In this document: one piece after another, positions 33,719-38,502 of the stretch
Layout of the letters: each line of letters begins with the position of its first letter
Position numbering within the stretch: the first letter of the stretch is position 1
Origin: Balneola sp. EhC07
GTDB lineage: Bacteria; Bacteroidota; Rhodothermia; Balneolales; Balneolaceae
Reading direction: 5' to 3'
Length of the DNA: 41,351 nt
NCBI RefSeq assembly: GCF_001650905.1
Contig: NZ_LXYG01000007.1
Coordinates: 1-41,351 of the forward strand
Notes under the pieces: generated by a model
Databases searched by the model: none
Told to the model about the DNA's origin: nothing
What the model saw: only the letters and a program-made list of their open reading frames with translations
Made by a program: the position numbers and the translations under genes

Positions 33719-36469
33719 ATGTCAAAGAAACTTCTTTTTTTACTTGATGGGATGGCACTGGCTTATCGTGCTCATTTCGCATTTGTTAATTCTCGACTTA
33801 AAAATTCTGAAGGAATAGCCACCGGTCCTGTGCTTGGATTTGCCAATACTATGATGAAGATGCTGGACGAAGAAAAACCCACACACATTGCCGTTGCCTG
33901 GGATACTCACGCTCCAACTTTCCGTCATACTGCCGACGAAACCTACAAAGCTCAACGTCCGCCACAGCCTGATGAACTGAAAGTGGGAATTCCTTTGATC
34001 AAAGAAATGGTAGAAAATTGGGGCATCAAAAATATTGAACAAGATGGCTATGAAGCCGACGATATAATCGGAACCATTGCTTCAGGTGCAAATGCAGATG
34101 ATGTAGATGTATATCTGGTTACTCCTGATAAGGACTTTATGCAATTGGTGCACGATCATGTAAAAATGATGAAGCCCGATAACAAAGACGGTGGATTTAA
34201 TATCATCGACAGAGAAGGAGTACATGATTATTTCGGAGTGTATCCGGATCAGGTGATCGATGTGCTGGCAATAATCGGTGATGCTTCTGATAACATTCCG
34301 GGTGTTCCGGGAATCGGAAAGAAAGGCGCTCCAAAACTGATCAATGAGTTTGGTTCTTTGGAAGAAGCCATCGCCAAAGCTGACACCATTTCCGCAAAAC
34401 GTCAGCGAGAAGGATTACAGGAATTTGCTGATCAGGCAATGCATGCCAAATTTATGGTGACCATCAAAACAGATGTTCCTGATACAGCAGAATGGGAAGA
34501 GTTAGAATGGAATGGTCCGAATAAGAATGATCTGGGTGCTTTTTTCAAAAGAATGGAATTCAGAACTCTTACAAAGAGATATTTAGGCGAAGAGCCCATC
34601 GAAAATAAAGCCGGAGATCAGGGAGATCTTTTCGGGACTTTTGTTGAAGAAGAACCTACTGAAAAGCTGGACGAAGAAAAGAATGCATATGAGCTGATCA
34701 AAGACATAGACGGGGTTAAAAAGCTTGTTGAGGATCTAAAGAAAGAATCCGTGATCTGTTTTGATACAGAGACAAATTCACCGAATCCGGTTTCGGCTTC
34801 ATTGGTAGGATTCTCATTTTCAGCCAAGCCGGGAATGGGTTTTTATATTCCTGTAAATGTTGAAGGAGCTTTGGATGAAAAAGAAGTGGTTGATATCATT
34901 CGTCTGTTGTTTGAAGATGAGAGTAAAACCCTTGTGGCTCATAACTATAAGTTCGATTGGCTGATTCTCCATCGAGCAGGAATTCAGATCAAAGGAAAGC
35001 CATTTGATACCATGATCGCTGCGTATCTTATTGATGCGACTCAAAAGATCAAGATGGATGAACTATCAAAAAAGTATCTGAATTATGAGCCGGTTCCGAT
35101 TGAAGCATTGATCGGAAAAGGAAAGAAGCAGATCTCTTTGGCTGATCTTACTCCTGAAGAAGTGTATTTGTATGCGTGTGAAGATGCAGATATAACTTTA
35201 CGATTGTATGAGATATTTAGCGAACAGCTCACCAAAGATGAATTGGATGAAGTTGCAAAAACAGTTGAATTTCCACTCATGGAAGTGCTTGCCGAGATCG
35301 AATATCAGGGAGTAAAGCTGGATGTTGGAATGCTGGAAGGATTTTCCGAAGATCTTGCTACCGATCTTAAAGAATTGGAGAAGCAGATCTATGAGAAGGC
35401 TGGAGAGGAGTTTAATATCAATTCTCCGCAACAGTTGGGAACCATTTTATTTGATAAACTGGGATTACCTGCCGGAAAGAAAACGAAAACAGGTCAGTAT
35501 TCTACCAATGAATCGGTGTTGACAAAACTGGCTGTGAAGTACGAAATGCCGGATCTGATTTTGGAATATCGTCAGTTGGCGAAACTAAAATCTACTTATG
35601 TTGATGCATTACCTTCGATTGTTGATGAAGCTACCGGTAGAATTCATACAGATTTCAATCAAAGTGTGGCGGCAACGGGTCGACTTTCATCTTCCAATCC
35701 TAATCTTCAGAATATTCCGATACGAACAAAACGAGGTCGGGAGATCCGTAAAGCATTTATAGCTGATAAAGGATTTAAAATGATGTCTGCGGATTATTCT
35801 CAGGTAGAGTTGAGAGTGATCGCTCATATCGCTAAAGATGAAGCTATGATCGAGGCGTTTAAAAATGGGGAAGATATTCACTCCAGAACAGCCAAAGAGA
35901 TCTTTCACTTGGATTCACTGGATGATGTTACTGCAGACCATCGTCGTAAAGCGAAAGAAGTGAATTTTGGAATTCCTTACGGATTAAGTGCGTATGGATT
36001 AGCTCAAAATCTCGGCATCGAAAATTCAGAAGGGAAGGAAATGATCGATGAATACTTTGAGCGATTTCCGAATATTCTGAATTACATCAATGACACTAAA
36101 CAGTTTGCCAAGGAACACGGATATGTGAAAACATTGATCGGAAGAAGGAGATATGTGCCGGATATCAATTCAGGAAACTGGAATGTTCGTGGATTTGCTG
36201 AACGTGTAGCGATCAACATGCCGATACAGGGAACGGCTGCAGATGTAATCAAGCTGGCGATGATCAACATCCATAACTGGCTGAAGAACAACGACAAGAA
36301 AAGCCGGATGTTACTTCAGGTTCATGATGAACTGATCTTTGAGATCCATGAAAGTGAGCTGGATGAAGTTCCAAAGAAGATCGAAGAATTGATGGAATCG
36401 GCTTTTGAGATGGATGTTCCTTTAAAAGTTGAAGCCGGAATTGGAGAGAATTGGTTGGAGGCGCATTGA
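33719..36469 (+). CDS. polA: DNA polymerase I
   Basis: A complete 916-residue Pol I used in Okazaki fragment processing and repair. The 5'-3' exonuclease domain (about 1-295) opens with LFLLDGMALAYRAHFAF and has the GYEADDIIG block. The 3'-5' proofreading domain (about 325-510) is intact: FDTET (D349, E351), AHNYKFDW and YACEDADIT. The polymerase domain has motif A SADYSQVELR (D692), motif B with RRKAKEVNFGIPYG, and motif C VHDEL (D870). Keeping a proofreading site differs from Thermus-type enzymes. Start ATG. No terminator follows; a palindromic element lies 80 bp downstream. Confidence 0.97.
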   Translation: MSKKLLFLLDGMALAYRAHFAFVNSRLKNSEGIATGPVLGFANTMMKMLDEEKPTHIAVAWDTHAPTFRHTADETYKAQRPPQPDELKVGIPLIKEMVENWGIKNIEQDGYEADDIIGTIASGANADDVDVYLVTPDKDFMQLVHDHVKMMKPDNKDGGFNIIDREGVHDYFGVYPDQVIDVLAIIGDASDNIPGVPGIGKKGAPKLINEFGSLEEAIAKADTISAKRQREGLQEFADQAMHAKFMVTIKTDVPDTAEWEELEWNGPNKNDLGAFFKRMEFRTLTKRYLGEEPIENKAGDQGDLFGTFVEEEPTEKLDEEKNAYELIKDIDGVKKLVEDLKKESVICFDTETNSPNPVSASLVGFSFSAKPGMGFYIPVNVEGALDEKEVVDIIRLLFEDESKTLVAHNYKFDWLILHRAGIQIKGKPFDTMIAAYLIDATQKIKMDELSKKYLNYEPVPIEALIGKGKKQISLADLTPEEVYLYACEDADITLRLYEIFSEQLTKDELDEVAKTVEFPLMEVLAEIEYQGVKLDVGMLEGFSEDLATDLKELEKQIYEKAGEEFNINSPQQLGTILFDKLGLPAGKKTKTGQYSTNESVLTKLAVKYEMPDLILEYRQLAKLKSTYVDALPSIVDEATGRIHTDFNQSVAATGRLSSSNPNLQNIPIRTKRGREIRKAFIADKGFKMMSADYSQVELRVIAHIAKDEAMIEAFKNGEDIHSRTAKEIFHLDSLDDVTADHRRKAKEVNFGIPYGLSAYGLAQNLGIENSEGKEMIDEYFERFPNILNYINDTKQFAKEHGYVKTLIGRRRYVPDINSGNWNVRGFAERVAINMPIQGTAADVIKLAMINIHNWLKNNDKKSRMLLQVHDELIFEIHESELDEVPKKIEELMESAFEMDVPLKVEAGIGENWLEAH

Positions 36470-36549
36470 TCAATTAAGAATGGCTCAATGAAGAATTAAG
36501 AATTTTTCAATTAGTAATAATTCTGATTTACGATTTCATCTCCAAAAAG

Positions 36550-36582
36550 GACGTCATCCCGAATTTATTTCGGGATCTTTGT
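36550..36582 (+). repeat. left copy of the GIY-YIG-flanking palindrome
   Basis: Begins GACGTC, then ATCCCGAA and TTCGGGAT form an 8-bp stem (36556-36563 with 36569-36576) around a 5-nt loop, and it ends CTTTGT. It is inverted relative to the copy at 36921-36950. Confidence 0.9.
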
Positions 36583-36614
36583 AAGGAATGGTAGTCGAAT
36601 CTGTCTTACTAATT

Positions 36615-36905
36615 ATGAGCAAAGGATACTTCTATTTTCTAACCAACTTTCAAAGGACTACGCTATATATTGGTTTTACTTCTAATCTCACTAGAAGAAT
36701 TTGGGAACATAAACAAGGAAAAGGTTCAGAGTTTACTTCAAAGTATAAGCTAACTATTCTGGTTTACGCAGAGGAATTCGATTCAATAGTGGATACCATT
36801 GATCGCGAAAAGCAATTAAAGAATTGGCATAAAGAATGGAAATGGAATTTGGTAAAGCAACACAATCCAAAGCTGGAAGATTGGGATGAGACTTTAAGGG
36901 GTTGA
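36615..36905 (+). CDS. small stand-alone GIY-YIG nuclease
   Basis: A 96-residue protein that is almost only a GIY-YIG domain (UPF0213/YhbQ-like). The first motif is YFYFL at residues 5-9 in place of GIY; YIG is at 18-20. The catalytic arginine is in NLTRRIWEHK (R27 or R28), the metal-binding glutamate is E65 in DREKQ, and the conserved asparagine is in QHNP (N84). The family cuts DNA with one metal ion; the target here is unknown. The frame is open to 36588, but the ATG at 36615 gives the family's short N-terminus. Inverted palindromes lie 32 bp before the start and 15 bp after the stop. Confidence 0.9.
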   Translation: MSKGYFYFLTNFQRTTLYIGFTSNLTRRIWEHKQGKGSEFTSKYKLTILVYAEEFDSIVDTIDREKQLKNWHKEWKWNLVKQHNPKLEDWDETLRG

Positions 36906-36920
36906 TCTGAGGTAGCTCAT

Positions 36921-36950
36921 AAGATCCTGAAACAAGTTCAGGATGACGTC
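36921..36950 (-). repeat. right copy of the GIY-YIG-flanking palindrome
   Basis: On the minus strand it begins GACGTCATCCTGAA and ends GATCTT. The stem is ATCCTGAA with TTCAGGAT (36924-36931 with 36937-36944) around a 5-nt loop. Compared with the left copy, the C-G pair at stem position 5 is a T-A pair. Confidence 0.9.
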
Positions 36951-36993
36951 ATTTAGATGGAACATTTCTTATTGGTAAAGATGTTCTGCTTCC

Positions 36994-38502
36994 ATGACTA
37001 TCAACAAAGACTACGACGTAATTATTATTGGTTCGGGAATGGGAGGGATGAGTGCAGGGGCGATGCTTGCCAATGACGGCTACAAAGTTCTGATCCTGGA
37101 AGCCGCGGCAGTTCCGGGTGGATGCAGTTCATCGTATTACAGAAAAGGATTTACGTTCGAGTCTGGCGCGACTACACTTATCGGATTTGATGAAAATCAG
37201 CCATTGTGGAAATTGGAGAGAGAAACCGGAATTCAGATTCCCAGAGAAGAGATCACTCCAAGTATGACGGTCAGGTTAGATGGCGAAGAGATTATCCGGT
37301 ATAAAGATCGGGCAGAATGGATTGAAGAAGCCGGACGAGTTTTTGGTAATCCTCAGGCACAGAGATCATTCTGGGAAGAAGCACTAAAAGTCTCTGATAC
37401 CGTTTGGGGTGTATCACTCAAAAATCCTTTTTTTCCACCGCAGAATATAACCGATTGGGGAAGACTGGCGATCTTAAATTCTCCCTTAGATGTTTGGGTG
37501 TTACCTTATGCCATTCAATCGGTTGAGGATGTAATGCGAAAGTTTGGAGTTGACACACCTAAGTTTCGTCGATTTGTAGATGAACAGTTGATGATCACAG
37601 CTCAATCAAAAGCAGAAGATACACCGTTTTTATTCGGTGCAGCCGGTTTGACTTATACCAACTATTCGAATTTTTATGTTCCCGGTGGATTACTGGAAAT
37701 GATCAACTCCATCAGAAGTTTTATTCAGGAAAAGGATGGTGCTCTTCATACTAGGGAAGCGGTTACTCATCTGAGTAAAAAAGAAGAAGAGTTCATCATT
37801 CAAACCAAAAAAGGAAATATTTACCAAGCCCCGATCGTGGTTTCCAATATCCCGATATGGAATATGAAAGATATCACATCAGGAGAAATGACGGAGTATT
37901 TTGTAGAAGAATCTGAAGATTTTGACGAAGCTTGGGGAGCGATCACATTAGGTATAGCAACCACGGATACTTATCCCGATGAAATGAGTTTACACCATCA
38001 AATTCATTTGGAAGAAGAAGATTCTATTCCGTTTACAAATTCAGATTCGATATTTGTATCTATGTCAAAAAGAGGAGATACCGATCGAGCTCCGGAAGGA
38101 AAAAGAACGCTCAATATATCCTGTCACGCTTCACCTGAATATTGGTTTTCATTAAATGGTGATTATGCATCTGCTAAGAAACAAACAGAAGAGTTTATAG
38201 TTGAAACACTAAAACAGAAACTACCGGGTTTTGAACAAAGTGATATCGAAACAATTCATACGGCTACTCCCATTACATGGCAAAATTGGGTATACCGCAA
38301 AAAAGGCAGGGTTGGTGGTATCCCGCAAAGCATGGCACGCAGCTTGCTTAAATGGACACCAAACCAAACGCCATTCTCAGGATTATATCTTGTGGGCGAT
38401 ACAACTTATCCCGGACAAGGAATTCCGGGCGTAACTTTAAGTGGTATCAACGTATATTGGCGTATCAAAAAAAATCAGAACAGAATTAAAAATCAGCGAT
38501 AA
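36994..38502 (+). CDS. FAD-dependent oxidoreductase of the CrtI/carotenoid isomerase type
   Basis: A 502-residue flavoprotein of the phytoene desaturase superfamily (CrtI, CrtD, CRTISO, RetSat). The N-terminal dinucleotide motif GSGMGG (13-18) is followed by GYKVLILEAAAVPGGCSSSY; the C-terminal flavin motif LYLVGDTTYPGQGIPGV lies near residue 465. Members desaturate or isomerise carotenoids or reduce retinol-like substrates. No crtB or other carotenoid gene is nearby, so the substrate is open. Start ATG. The rhomboid gene begins 9 bp after its stop, so it heads a plus-strand group. Confidence 0.87.
   Translation: MTINKDYDVIIIGSGMGGMSAGAMLANDGYKVLILEAAAVPGGCSSSYYRKGFTFESGATTLIGFDENQPLWKLERETGIQIPREEITPSMTVRLDGEEIIRYKDRAEWIEEAGRVFGNPQAQRSFWEEALKVSDTVWGVSLKNPFFPPQNITDWGRLAILNSPLDVWVLPYAIQSVEDVMRKFGVDTPKFRRFVDEQLMITAQSKAEDTPFLFGAAGLTYTNYSNFYVPGGLLEMINSIRSFIQEKDGALHTREAVTHLSKKEEEFIIQTKKGNIYQAPIVVSNIPIWNMKDITSGEMTEYFVEESEDFDEAWGAITLGIATTDTYPDEMSLHHQIHLEEEDSIPFTNSDSIFVSMSKRGDTDRAPEGKRTLNISCHASPEYWFSLNGDYASAKKQTEEFIVETLKQKLPGFEQSDIETIHTATPITWQNWVYRKKGRVGGIPQSMARSLLKWTPNQTPFSGLYLVGDTTYPGQGIPGVTLSGINVYWRIKKNQNRIKNQR

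Follow-up and report, generated by a model that had tools for sequence, protein, structure and literature searches.

Why a small nuclease gene should be enclosed by two inverted copies of one palindrome is a question raised by a unit of about 400 bp (positions 36549–36951, forward strand) in Balneola sp. EhC07. The window, by which we mean the whole 41,351-nucleotide stretch of contig NZ_LXYG01000007.1 that was analysed, has the order polA, unit and CrtI/CrtD-like desaturase gene at this place. We consider it probable that the unit represents a widespread system resembling RAYT/REPIN, in which CGTC-tagged palindromes have a small stand-alone GIY-YIG endonuclease as their dedicated partner.

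The unit and its copies in the Balneola genome

The left palindrome (36549–36579, forward strand; GGACGTCATCCCGAATTTATTTCGGGATCTT) is made up of an outer tag GGACGTC, an 8-bp stem (ATCCCGAA/TTCGGGAT) closed by the loop TTTAT, and an inner CTT. It is adjoined by a short inner signature, TGTAAGG (36580–36586, forward strand; GATCTT-TGTAAGG when read across the border), which recurs at a single end in units L004, L006 and L009 and in doublets L019 and L035, described below. The GIY-YIG nuclease gene comes next (36615–36905, forward strand) and encodes 96 amino acids matching Pfam PF01541 (E 3e-13); an alternative start at 36588 would give 105 amino acids. The right palindrome (36921–36951, reverse strand; TGACGTCATCCTGAACTTGTTTCAGGATCTT) is inverted and has the stem ATCCTGAA/TTCAGGAT with the five-nucleotide loop CTTGT. 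Folded alone, the left and right palindromes reach −7.4 kcal/mol (z −3.8) and −6.1 kcal/mol (z −3.5), respectively. An earlier sequence-only reading had described a 96-residue stand-alone GIY-YIG gene between two inverted palindromes, each with an 8-bp stem and a 5-nt loop, that match at 26 of 30 positions and differ by two compensatory exchanges of a C-G stem pair for T-A. The profile match and the coordinates confirm the gene and its position, both palindromes fold as described, and the number of matching positions and the two exchanges are correct on reading the sequence.

A repeat search scores the palindrome pair as 34-nucleotide arms with 85% complementarity. The core pattern, with up to two mismatches allowed, occurs in the window at these two palindromes only, and gave no matches in 100 shuffles. 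Outside the unit are located polA on the left (33719–36469, forward strand; Pfam DNA_pol_A, E 8.5e-168) and the desaturase gene on the right (36994–38502, forward strand; Pfam Amino_oxidase, E 1.9e-20), the product of which has an amine-oxidase fold and NCBIfam matches below cut-off. Rfam contained nothing near the unit up to E 0.5, PADLOC gave no match up to E 0.1 and PHROGs gave weak matches only (E 0.012 or worse).

The left palindrome is one of 73 copies of the exact core in the 3.62-Mb draft genome, in which the reversed control pattern does not occur. Neighbouring exact copies at most 700 bp apart form 15 pairs with the tags outward, none with the tags inward and five in direct orientation, and four of the 15 outward pairs have a GIY-YIG gene inside. 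The genome contains 11 matches to PF01541, six of which are flanked by such palindromes on both sides (L003, L004, L005, which is the unit of the window, L006, L009, which has one stop, and the decayed L011), while the other five are not. A longer variant of the palindrome is present on one side of L003 and on both sides of L011, with TCCGCCAGCTGGCGGA between the usual half stems. L003, L004, L006, L009 and L011 are 88–96% alike. In L003, L004, L006 and L011, the shared stretch is about 530 bp long and takes in an outer inverted repeat; the homology of L009 to the other units is limited to about 420 bp and ends no more than about 14 bp from the palindromes. The outer inverted repeat (about TTGTAGATGTTAGRTAATTCGNTGACA) surrounds the palindrome unit in the copies of about 530 bp, namely L003, L004, L006, L011, L050, L053 and L057, and the whole has the form of an element around an element. 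The GIY-YIG gene at L001 (1501–1701) is of another kind: it has a T5orf172 match and is flanked by an inverted repeat of its own, CCCCGCACATAACATTTAA, which is unrelated to the CGTC palindromes.

Units L004, L006 and L009 have two different, polar inner ends, GATCTTACG and GATCTTTGTA. Both are present in three of the four gene-less doublets that were read (L019, L031 and L033; L017 has neither), and a fifth doublet, L035, has both and retains pieces of the gene from either end. The unit of the window contains only one of the polar ends, GATCTTTGTA; at its other end, on the inner side of the right palindrome, it reads GATCTTATG where L004, L006 and L009 have GATCTTACG. In 69 distinct copies from the genus, conservation drops just outside the tag and persists inward, the commonest inner 9-mer being TTTGTAAGG (17 copies). 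Judged by their ends, the units and gene-less doublets have the look of an autonomous element with shortened derivatives: L019, L031, L033 and L035, but not L017, share both ends as non-autonomous internal-deletion derivatives, a trait of classical insertion sequence/MITE pairs.

By their sequence, the palindromes of the window fit the CGTC-tagged REP superfamily. In the part of the survey by Di Nocera, De Gregorio and Rocco (2013; PMC3733652) that was available, this superfamily is described as having a CGTC tag, a stem of 8–9 bp starting with AT and a loop of 4–5 nt, and as occurring mostly in head-to-head dimers; it includes Neisseria dRS3 and Rickettsia RPE-4/6, and Bacteroidetes are among its hosts. 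The window palindrome shares tag, stem and loop (GACGTC, ATCCCGAA-TTTAT-TTCGGGAT), and the genome shares the high copy number (73) and the head-to-head bias (15 head-to-head, no tail-to-tail and five direct pairs); intergenic placement was not counted. Within the genus the tag is GTC, preceded mostly by G or C. According to the same portion of the survey, CGTC-tagged REPs 'apparently lack a dedicated transposase'; 'GIY' is absent from its main text, and no GIY-YIG partner is mentioned there (PMC3733652).

Pairing of gene and palindrome across genomes

If the palindrome were scattered without enrichment next to GIY-YIG genes, the proposed pairing would be refuted. Scattered it is, with 73 copies in one genome, but enrichment is not lacking. 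Among 15 close GIY-YIG loci of the genus, the palindrome is observed on both sides, within 400 bp, at 12 and on one side at the remaining three; it is absent from all eight other GIY-YIG loci of the genus, four of which (L008, L064, L065 and L071) are a single orthologous locus, and from the Y1-transposase loci considered below. The 15 close loci leave out GIY-YIG genes of the genus at 35–46% identity, some with inverted repeats of another kind and others without a clear one. A gene at other sites in relatives without any palindrome would likewise have counted against the sequence-only reading. Elsewhere in relatives the gene is mostly accompanied by palindromes, even where the stems are different, while no clear palindrome is present at L061, L252 and L255.

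In the family, the palindrome pattern is found in 41 of 92 genomes. When a close homologue of the window protein is defined by E of at most 1e-26, a cut-off that was chosen after the tables had been seen, at least 10 palindrome copies are present in 19 of the 20 genomes with a close gene and in 8 of the 72 without (Fisher 2e-12; genus-stratified permutation 1e-5). The corresponding figures are 18 of 19 against 9 of 73 at a cut-off of 1e-30, and 20 of 28 against 7 of 64 at 1e-20. The exceptions are G034, with the gene but only two palindrome copies, and G004, G015, G017, G018, G045, G048, G067 (101 repeats) and G074, with copies but no close gene. A further pair, formed by TTTCGA-type palindromes and the type B gene, co-occurs more weakly (7 of 11 against 7 of 81), and this association is partly confounded with type A, in that type B tends to be present in genomes with type A. 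A clean double dissociation of the two pairs was looked for and failed, the type B repeats tracking the type B gene only moderately.

The orientation of the palindromes is not uniform. At a further 23 loci of the family, strict outward hairpins are located on both sides in seven cases, on one side in seven and on neither in nine. Seven of the last nine (L227 and L229–L234; five loci of genus g2, one of g3 and one of g6) have the same palindrome with the tags inward. Tags facing the GIY-YIG gene, opposite to the order in the window, are also seen at L075, L079 and L083, and the inward-tag loci belong to genera g2, g3 and g6 and to Fodinibius-like records. Since both sides of the Azospirillum lipoferum unit (see below) are full doublets, single inward tags elsewhere could be remnants of doublets, which has not been shown in the lineages with inward tags. 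Nine loci with more distant GIY-YIG genes (L236–L244) have hairpins with other stems, on both sides at one (L241), on one side at six and on none at two.

Outside the family, a profile scan with one genome per species yielded 549 confirmed loci, the best 80 of which make up the cross-phylum set; seven were dropped from the hairpin test for having less than 350 bp of flank. In the remaining 73 of the best 80 loci, strict tag-outward GTC hairpins were found on both sides at 36, on one side at 18 and on none at 19, several of these 19 having imperfect CGTC palindromes by eye. The two-sided loci among these 73 come from nine phyla. At shifted positions, hairpins on both sides were never found (0 of 73, 0 of 74, 0 of 70 and 0 of 69, or 0 of 286 in total), and those on one side were found 7, 5, 8 and 9 times. 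With the 63 other trinucleotides as anchor, the median is one of 73 loci with hairpins on both sides, against 36 of 73 for GTC; the two highest of these others, TCA (28) and CAT (21), detect the same hairpin in a shifted register, and the next reaches 9. Counted over the same 73 of the best 80 loci, there are 117 outward hairpins against 74 inward ones, the latter being present on both sides at 14 loci. The hairpin rule was relaxed twice after misses had been inspected, earlier rules giving 26 of 80 and then 33 of 74 loci with both sides. The anchor control was run with the last two rules and the shifted positions with the final rule only; for the first rule, the far background amounted to 43 matches in 257.5 kb. 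When the left flank was aligned with the right one, for 74 of the best 80 loci, the score lay above the 95th percentile of cross-class pairs at 39 loci and above the 99th at 22, and none of 143 shifted windows went beyond the 99th percentile.

The plasmid collection contained 33 records with a match, 12 of which were opened. Strict outward hairpins on both sides are present in seven of these 12 (Novosphingobium aromaticivorans, Azospirillum lipoferum, Neisseria gonorrhoeae, Sphingobium, Shinella, Rhizobium CIAT894 and Aeromonas caviae). In Sinorhizobium meliloti the test finds a hairpin on one side, the one on the other side containing a single inserted base. Imperfect palindromes can be seen by eye in Planktothrix and Spirosoma, and no palindrome was seen at the opened GIY-YIG loci of Rhizobium tumorigenes and Photobacterium. 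In plasmid p1 of Planktothrix agardhii (L250), the GIY-YIG gene with its GTCATTCTGAG-type repeats is located between the gene for an MmeI-type restriction enzyme and the DISARM gene drmA.

Generally, the stems vary widely between loci, with their complementarity kept (for example ATCCTGAA, ATGCTGAA, ATTCCAAA, ATCACGCGA and GTCCCTGC). In one palindrome type (168 copies), Watson-Crick pairing at two variable stem positions is observed at frequencies of 0.95 and 0.98, against 0.51 and 0.57 expected. The variation also follows the protein. On a tree of 78 of the best 80 proteins (two with internal stops were left out), 41 rows of which were labelled, palindrome type changes 10 times, against a mean of 17.1 after shuffling (0 of 300 as low) and of 14.6 after shuffling within classes (3 of 300 as low as 10). 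Neither rows of the type 'other' nor rows that lacked an outward hairpin were counted, the tree is weakly resolved, and the palindrome types are coarse and were defined by the analyst; the labelling rule was slightly altered between two runs, both of which gave 10 changes. As far as these comparisons reach, enzyme and flanking palindromes coevolve, and the RAYT/REPtron criterion is met. In the right palindrome of the polA-crtI site of G003 and G001 (L153 and L154, respectively), the loop holds a palindrome-like insert, with CTGAAT...GTTCAG nested in CCTGAAAC...GTTCAGG.

Presence, absence and relative age of the unit

The presence and absence of the unit can be observed at several sites. In Azospirillum lipoferum 4B, the gene is located between sufB and sufC, where a doublet of palindromes borders it on either side. 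For the 11 further Azospirillum records that were listed (23 had some match), the span of the same flanks is about 805–913 bp rather than 1,401, which means that they lack the unit; four of these 11 sequences were inspected directly. By reading, Sinorhizobium meliloti Ak57 contains an intact unit beside an internally deleted one, and Sinorhizobium K101 has palindrome remnants only at the site of the Ak57 unit.

The polA-crtI site itself contains the unit in G000, G001, G003 and G007, while G004 is without it and G006 keeps the ends of the unit around other DNA; in G002 and G005 there is no unit after polA. From its sequence, the absence in G004 may be a microhomology deletion. The window and G007 are 87.6% identical over a stretch (36542–36952) whose ends lie at most 7 bp from the palindromes, against 75.8% and 69.7% in the flanking matches. 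Synonymous differences from G007 amount to 0.40 in the GIY-YIG gene, against 0.82 and 0.80 in its neighbours (p 3e-9 and 3e-7), and those from G001 to 0.18 against 0.42 and 0.33 (p 6e-4 and 0.035); those from G003 are not lower in the gene (0.39, against 0.34 and 0.34). By these differences, two of the three comparisons (with G007 and G001, not with G003) make the unit younger than the genes beside it. Together with the similar units at other sites and the absence in Azospirillum, the G007 and G001 values support the mobility that had been suggested for the unit.

Neither a target-site duplication nor an exact empty allele could be made out at the four genus sites that were compared (L033, L031, L035 and L019, of six searched across the genus), or at the polA-crtI and Azospirillum sites. 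The intergenic regions compared are mosaics of several palindrome families, in which presence and absence are visible but no exact junction is. At the L031 site, G000, G004 and G006 contain a CCTGAAC-type doublet and G001 and G003 a TTTCGA-type one, as though certain intergenic sites drew in palindromes of different families.

The nuclease and the explanations of the pairing

The only Pfam match of the unit protein is GIY-YIG (PF01541), with no Y1 HUH transposase. In an alignment of 75 sequences (10 from the genus and 65 from the best 80 loci of the cross-phylum scan), Y18, H32, E65 and N84 are invariant and Y7 and R28 are at least 90% conserved; the set of catalytic residues of the GIY-YIG superfamily (Tyr, Tyr, Arg, His/Tyr, Glu and Asn) is present in the family. 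For some of these residues, the catalytic role is general background on the superfamily. For the others, it is taken from the available portion of a published study (PMC10287932). Because the catalytic residues are conserved, the protein is likely to be an active nuclease, a prediction for which there are no cleavage data. The predicted structure (pLDDT 87) is ranked by Foldseek closest to the UPF0213 protein BH0048 (E 2.4e-3), followed by Slx1 (E 0.06, despite which the probability is 1.00) and UvrC (E 0.4), and no match of the model reaches E 0.001. A sequence-profile search of solved structures returned UPF0213 only (1zg2, BH0048, E 4e-10; 1ywl, EF2693, E 1.5e-7), these small GIY-YIG proteins being both the only solved relatives by profile and the best fold match. 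The same GIY-YIG fold is found in the structure-selective nucleases Slx1 and ANKLE1, both of them DNA-repair enzymes of eukaryotes that have additional domains or partners and are not known to be tied to any repeat.

RAYT/REP systems and REPINs are reportedly the subject of work by Bertels and Rainey from 2011. The Balneola unit is like RAYT/REP REPtrons and REPINs in that a single small gene is located between two inverted palindromes, gene-less inverted pairs exist, cognate palindromes vary with the gene and the presence of the gene predicts repeat abundance. It is different in its enzyme, which is Y1/HUH in RAYT and GIY-YIG here, in its tag, which is GTAG in REPs and (C/G)GTC here, and in that the Y1 genes of the genus are not near CGTC palindromes (0 of 30 loci). 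The features by which RAYTs are recognised, as given in the part of Nunvar 2010 that was available (PMC2817692), are inverted REPs around the gene, coevolution and correlation with abundance. Since these are met but enzyme and tag differ, the unit would work like a RAYT/REP system without being a member. The sequence-only reading had drawn the same parallel, which is supported for anatomy, co-occurrence, cognate variation and presence/absence.

If the GIY-YIG endonuclease is the dedicated partner of the CGTC palindromes, as we think, the palindrome-gene-palindrome unit would be an autonomous mobile element, gene-less outward-tagged pairs would be its shortened, non-autonomous relatives and single palindromes would be remnants. 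The nuclease would recognise the tag and its own stem on an extruded palindrome, as a hairpin or cruciform, for example on the lagging strand, and would nick it by metal-dependent hydrolysis, in the way its relative ANKLE1 nicks a cruciform. The unit or doublet would then be copied into a new intergenic site by host repair or replication. The association with the gene, the change of stems between loci and the presence or absence of units are established by comparison; recognition, cleavage and copying are inferred. In the accessible part of the work on ANKLE1 (PMC10287932), this enzyme nicks a cruciform in a plasmid, from which we infer that extruded palindromes are plausible substrates of the unit nuclease. 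Against this explanation stand the repeats without gene in 8 of 72 genomes, the inward tags, the absence of a strict outward hairpin from 19 of 73 loci and the lack of a target duplication.

Alternatively, the nuclease could be homing: a selfish GIY-YIG gene would cut, and copy itself into, ready-made palindrome pairs that something else had spread. GIY-YIG homing endonucleases of the I-TevI type are indeed mobile nuclease genes with the same catalytic core, and the NCBIfam model for group I intron endonucleases finds 28 of the 75 homologues with E no higher than 0.001 (best 1.8e-7). If the gene re-entered a preferred site, the polA-crtI unit would also be younger than its neighbours, as seen against G007 and G001, which is compatible with homing and no proof of it. 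However, repeat number depends on the gene (19 of 20 against 8 of 72 genomes), three of the four gene-less doublets have both polar ends of the unit, L035 keeps remnants of the gene, and the only other mover that was checked, the Y1 transposases, is not near the palindrome (0 of 30 loci). I-TevI-type enzymes are known to have no terminal palindromes of their own and no large families of gene-less derivatives. We regard homing as unlikely.

A function in host maintenance, with the nuclease trimming or resolving palindrome cruciforms and the pairing held by selection without either partner being mobile, would agree with the purifying selection on the gene (dN/dS 0.04–0.09 in three comparisons) and with a fold nearest to UPF0213 and then to the structure-selective Slx1. 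The neighbouring genes are under even stricter selection (0.01–0.04 where not saturated). We give little credence to this explanation, against which argue several closely similar units at different sites, the presence or absence of the unit between close relatives, the decayed copies with stops, and stems that change with the protein family.

All eight genomes of the genus encode Y1 transposases, so the palindromes could be ordinary REPs spread by these RAYT enzymes, the GIY-YIG gene being merely among them. Of 41 Y1 transposase matches, 30 became loci for the palindrome check, and the palindrome is absent from the 1.5-kb flanks of all 30, while it is present on both sides, within 400 bp, at 12 of the 15 close GIY-YIG loci; Y1 transposases were rejected as movers of the palindrome on this count. 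In the available part of Di Nocera 2013, no RAYT is flanked by CGTC repeats either (PMC3733652), and very little room is left for this explanation. That the palindromes are chance hairpins or mere transcription terminators around a small gene, for which 8-bp stems could serve (there are no data on this), is practically ruled out by the specificity for the tag (36 of 73 loci for GTC against a median of 1 for 63 other anchors), the 0 of 286 at shifted positions and the 15 outward against no inward pairs in the genome of the window.

Among the matches listed from the open-licence literature, outside of which are subscription papers and preprints, no paper joins GIY-YIG genes and REP palindromes. 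The occurrence of the same gene-hairpin pairing in many phyla suggests that the GIY-YIG enzyme is the missing partner that spreads CGTC repeats. A more far-reaching proposal is that small GIY-YIG nucleases mobilise the whole bacterial CGTC REP superfamily, including repeats of the Neisseria dRS3 type and alphaproteobacterial ones, by hydrolytic cutting of their own terminal hairpins and host repair, without transposase chemistry, and that this arose independently of RAYT/GTAG. We put it forward tentatively, as a genuine possibility that we are slightly more inclined to doubt than to accept.

Among the non-coding repeats of bacteria, REPs are common, and the 2013 survey could name no enzyme for one of their two large classes. 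With a named candidate enzyme and its cognate palindromes, the question of the missing enzyme becomes testable. If our reading is true, a partnership of nuclease and palindrome would have evolved at least twice from unrelated enzymes, and small genes annotated only as 'GIY-YIG nuclease family protein' would gain a function.
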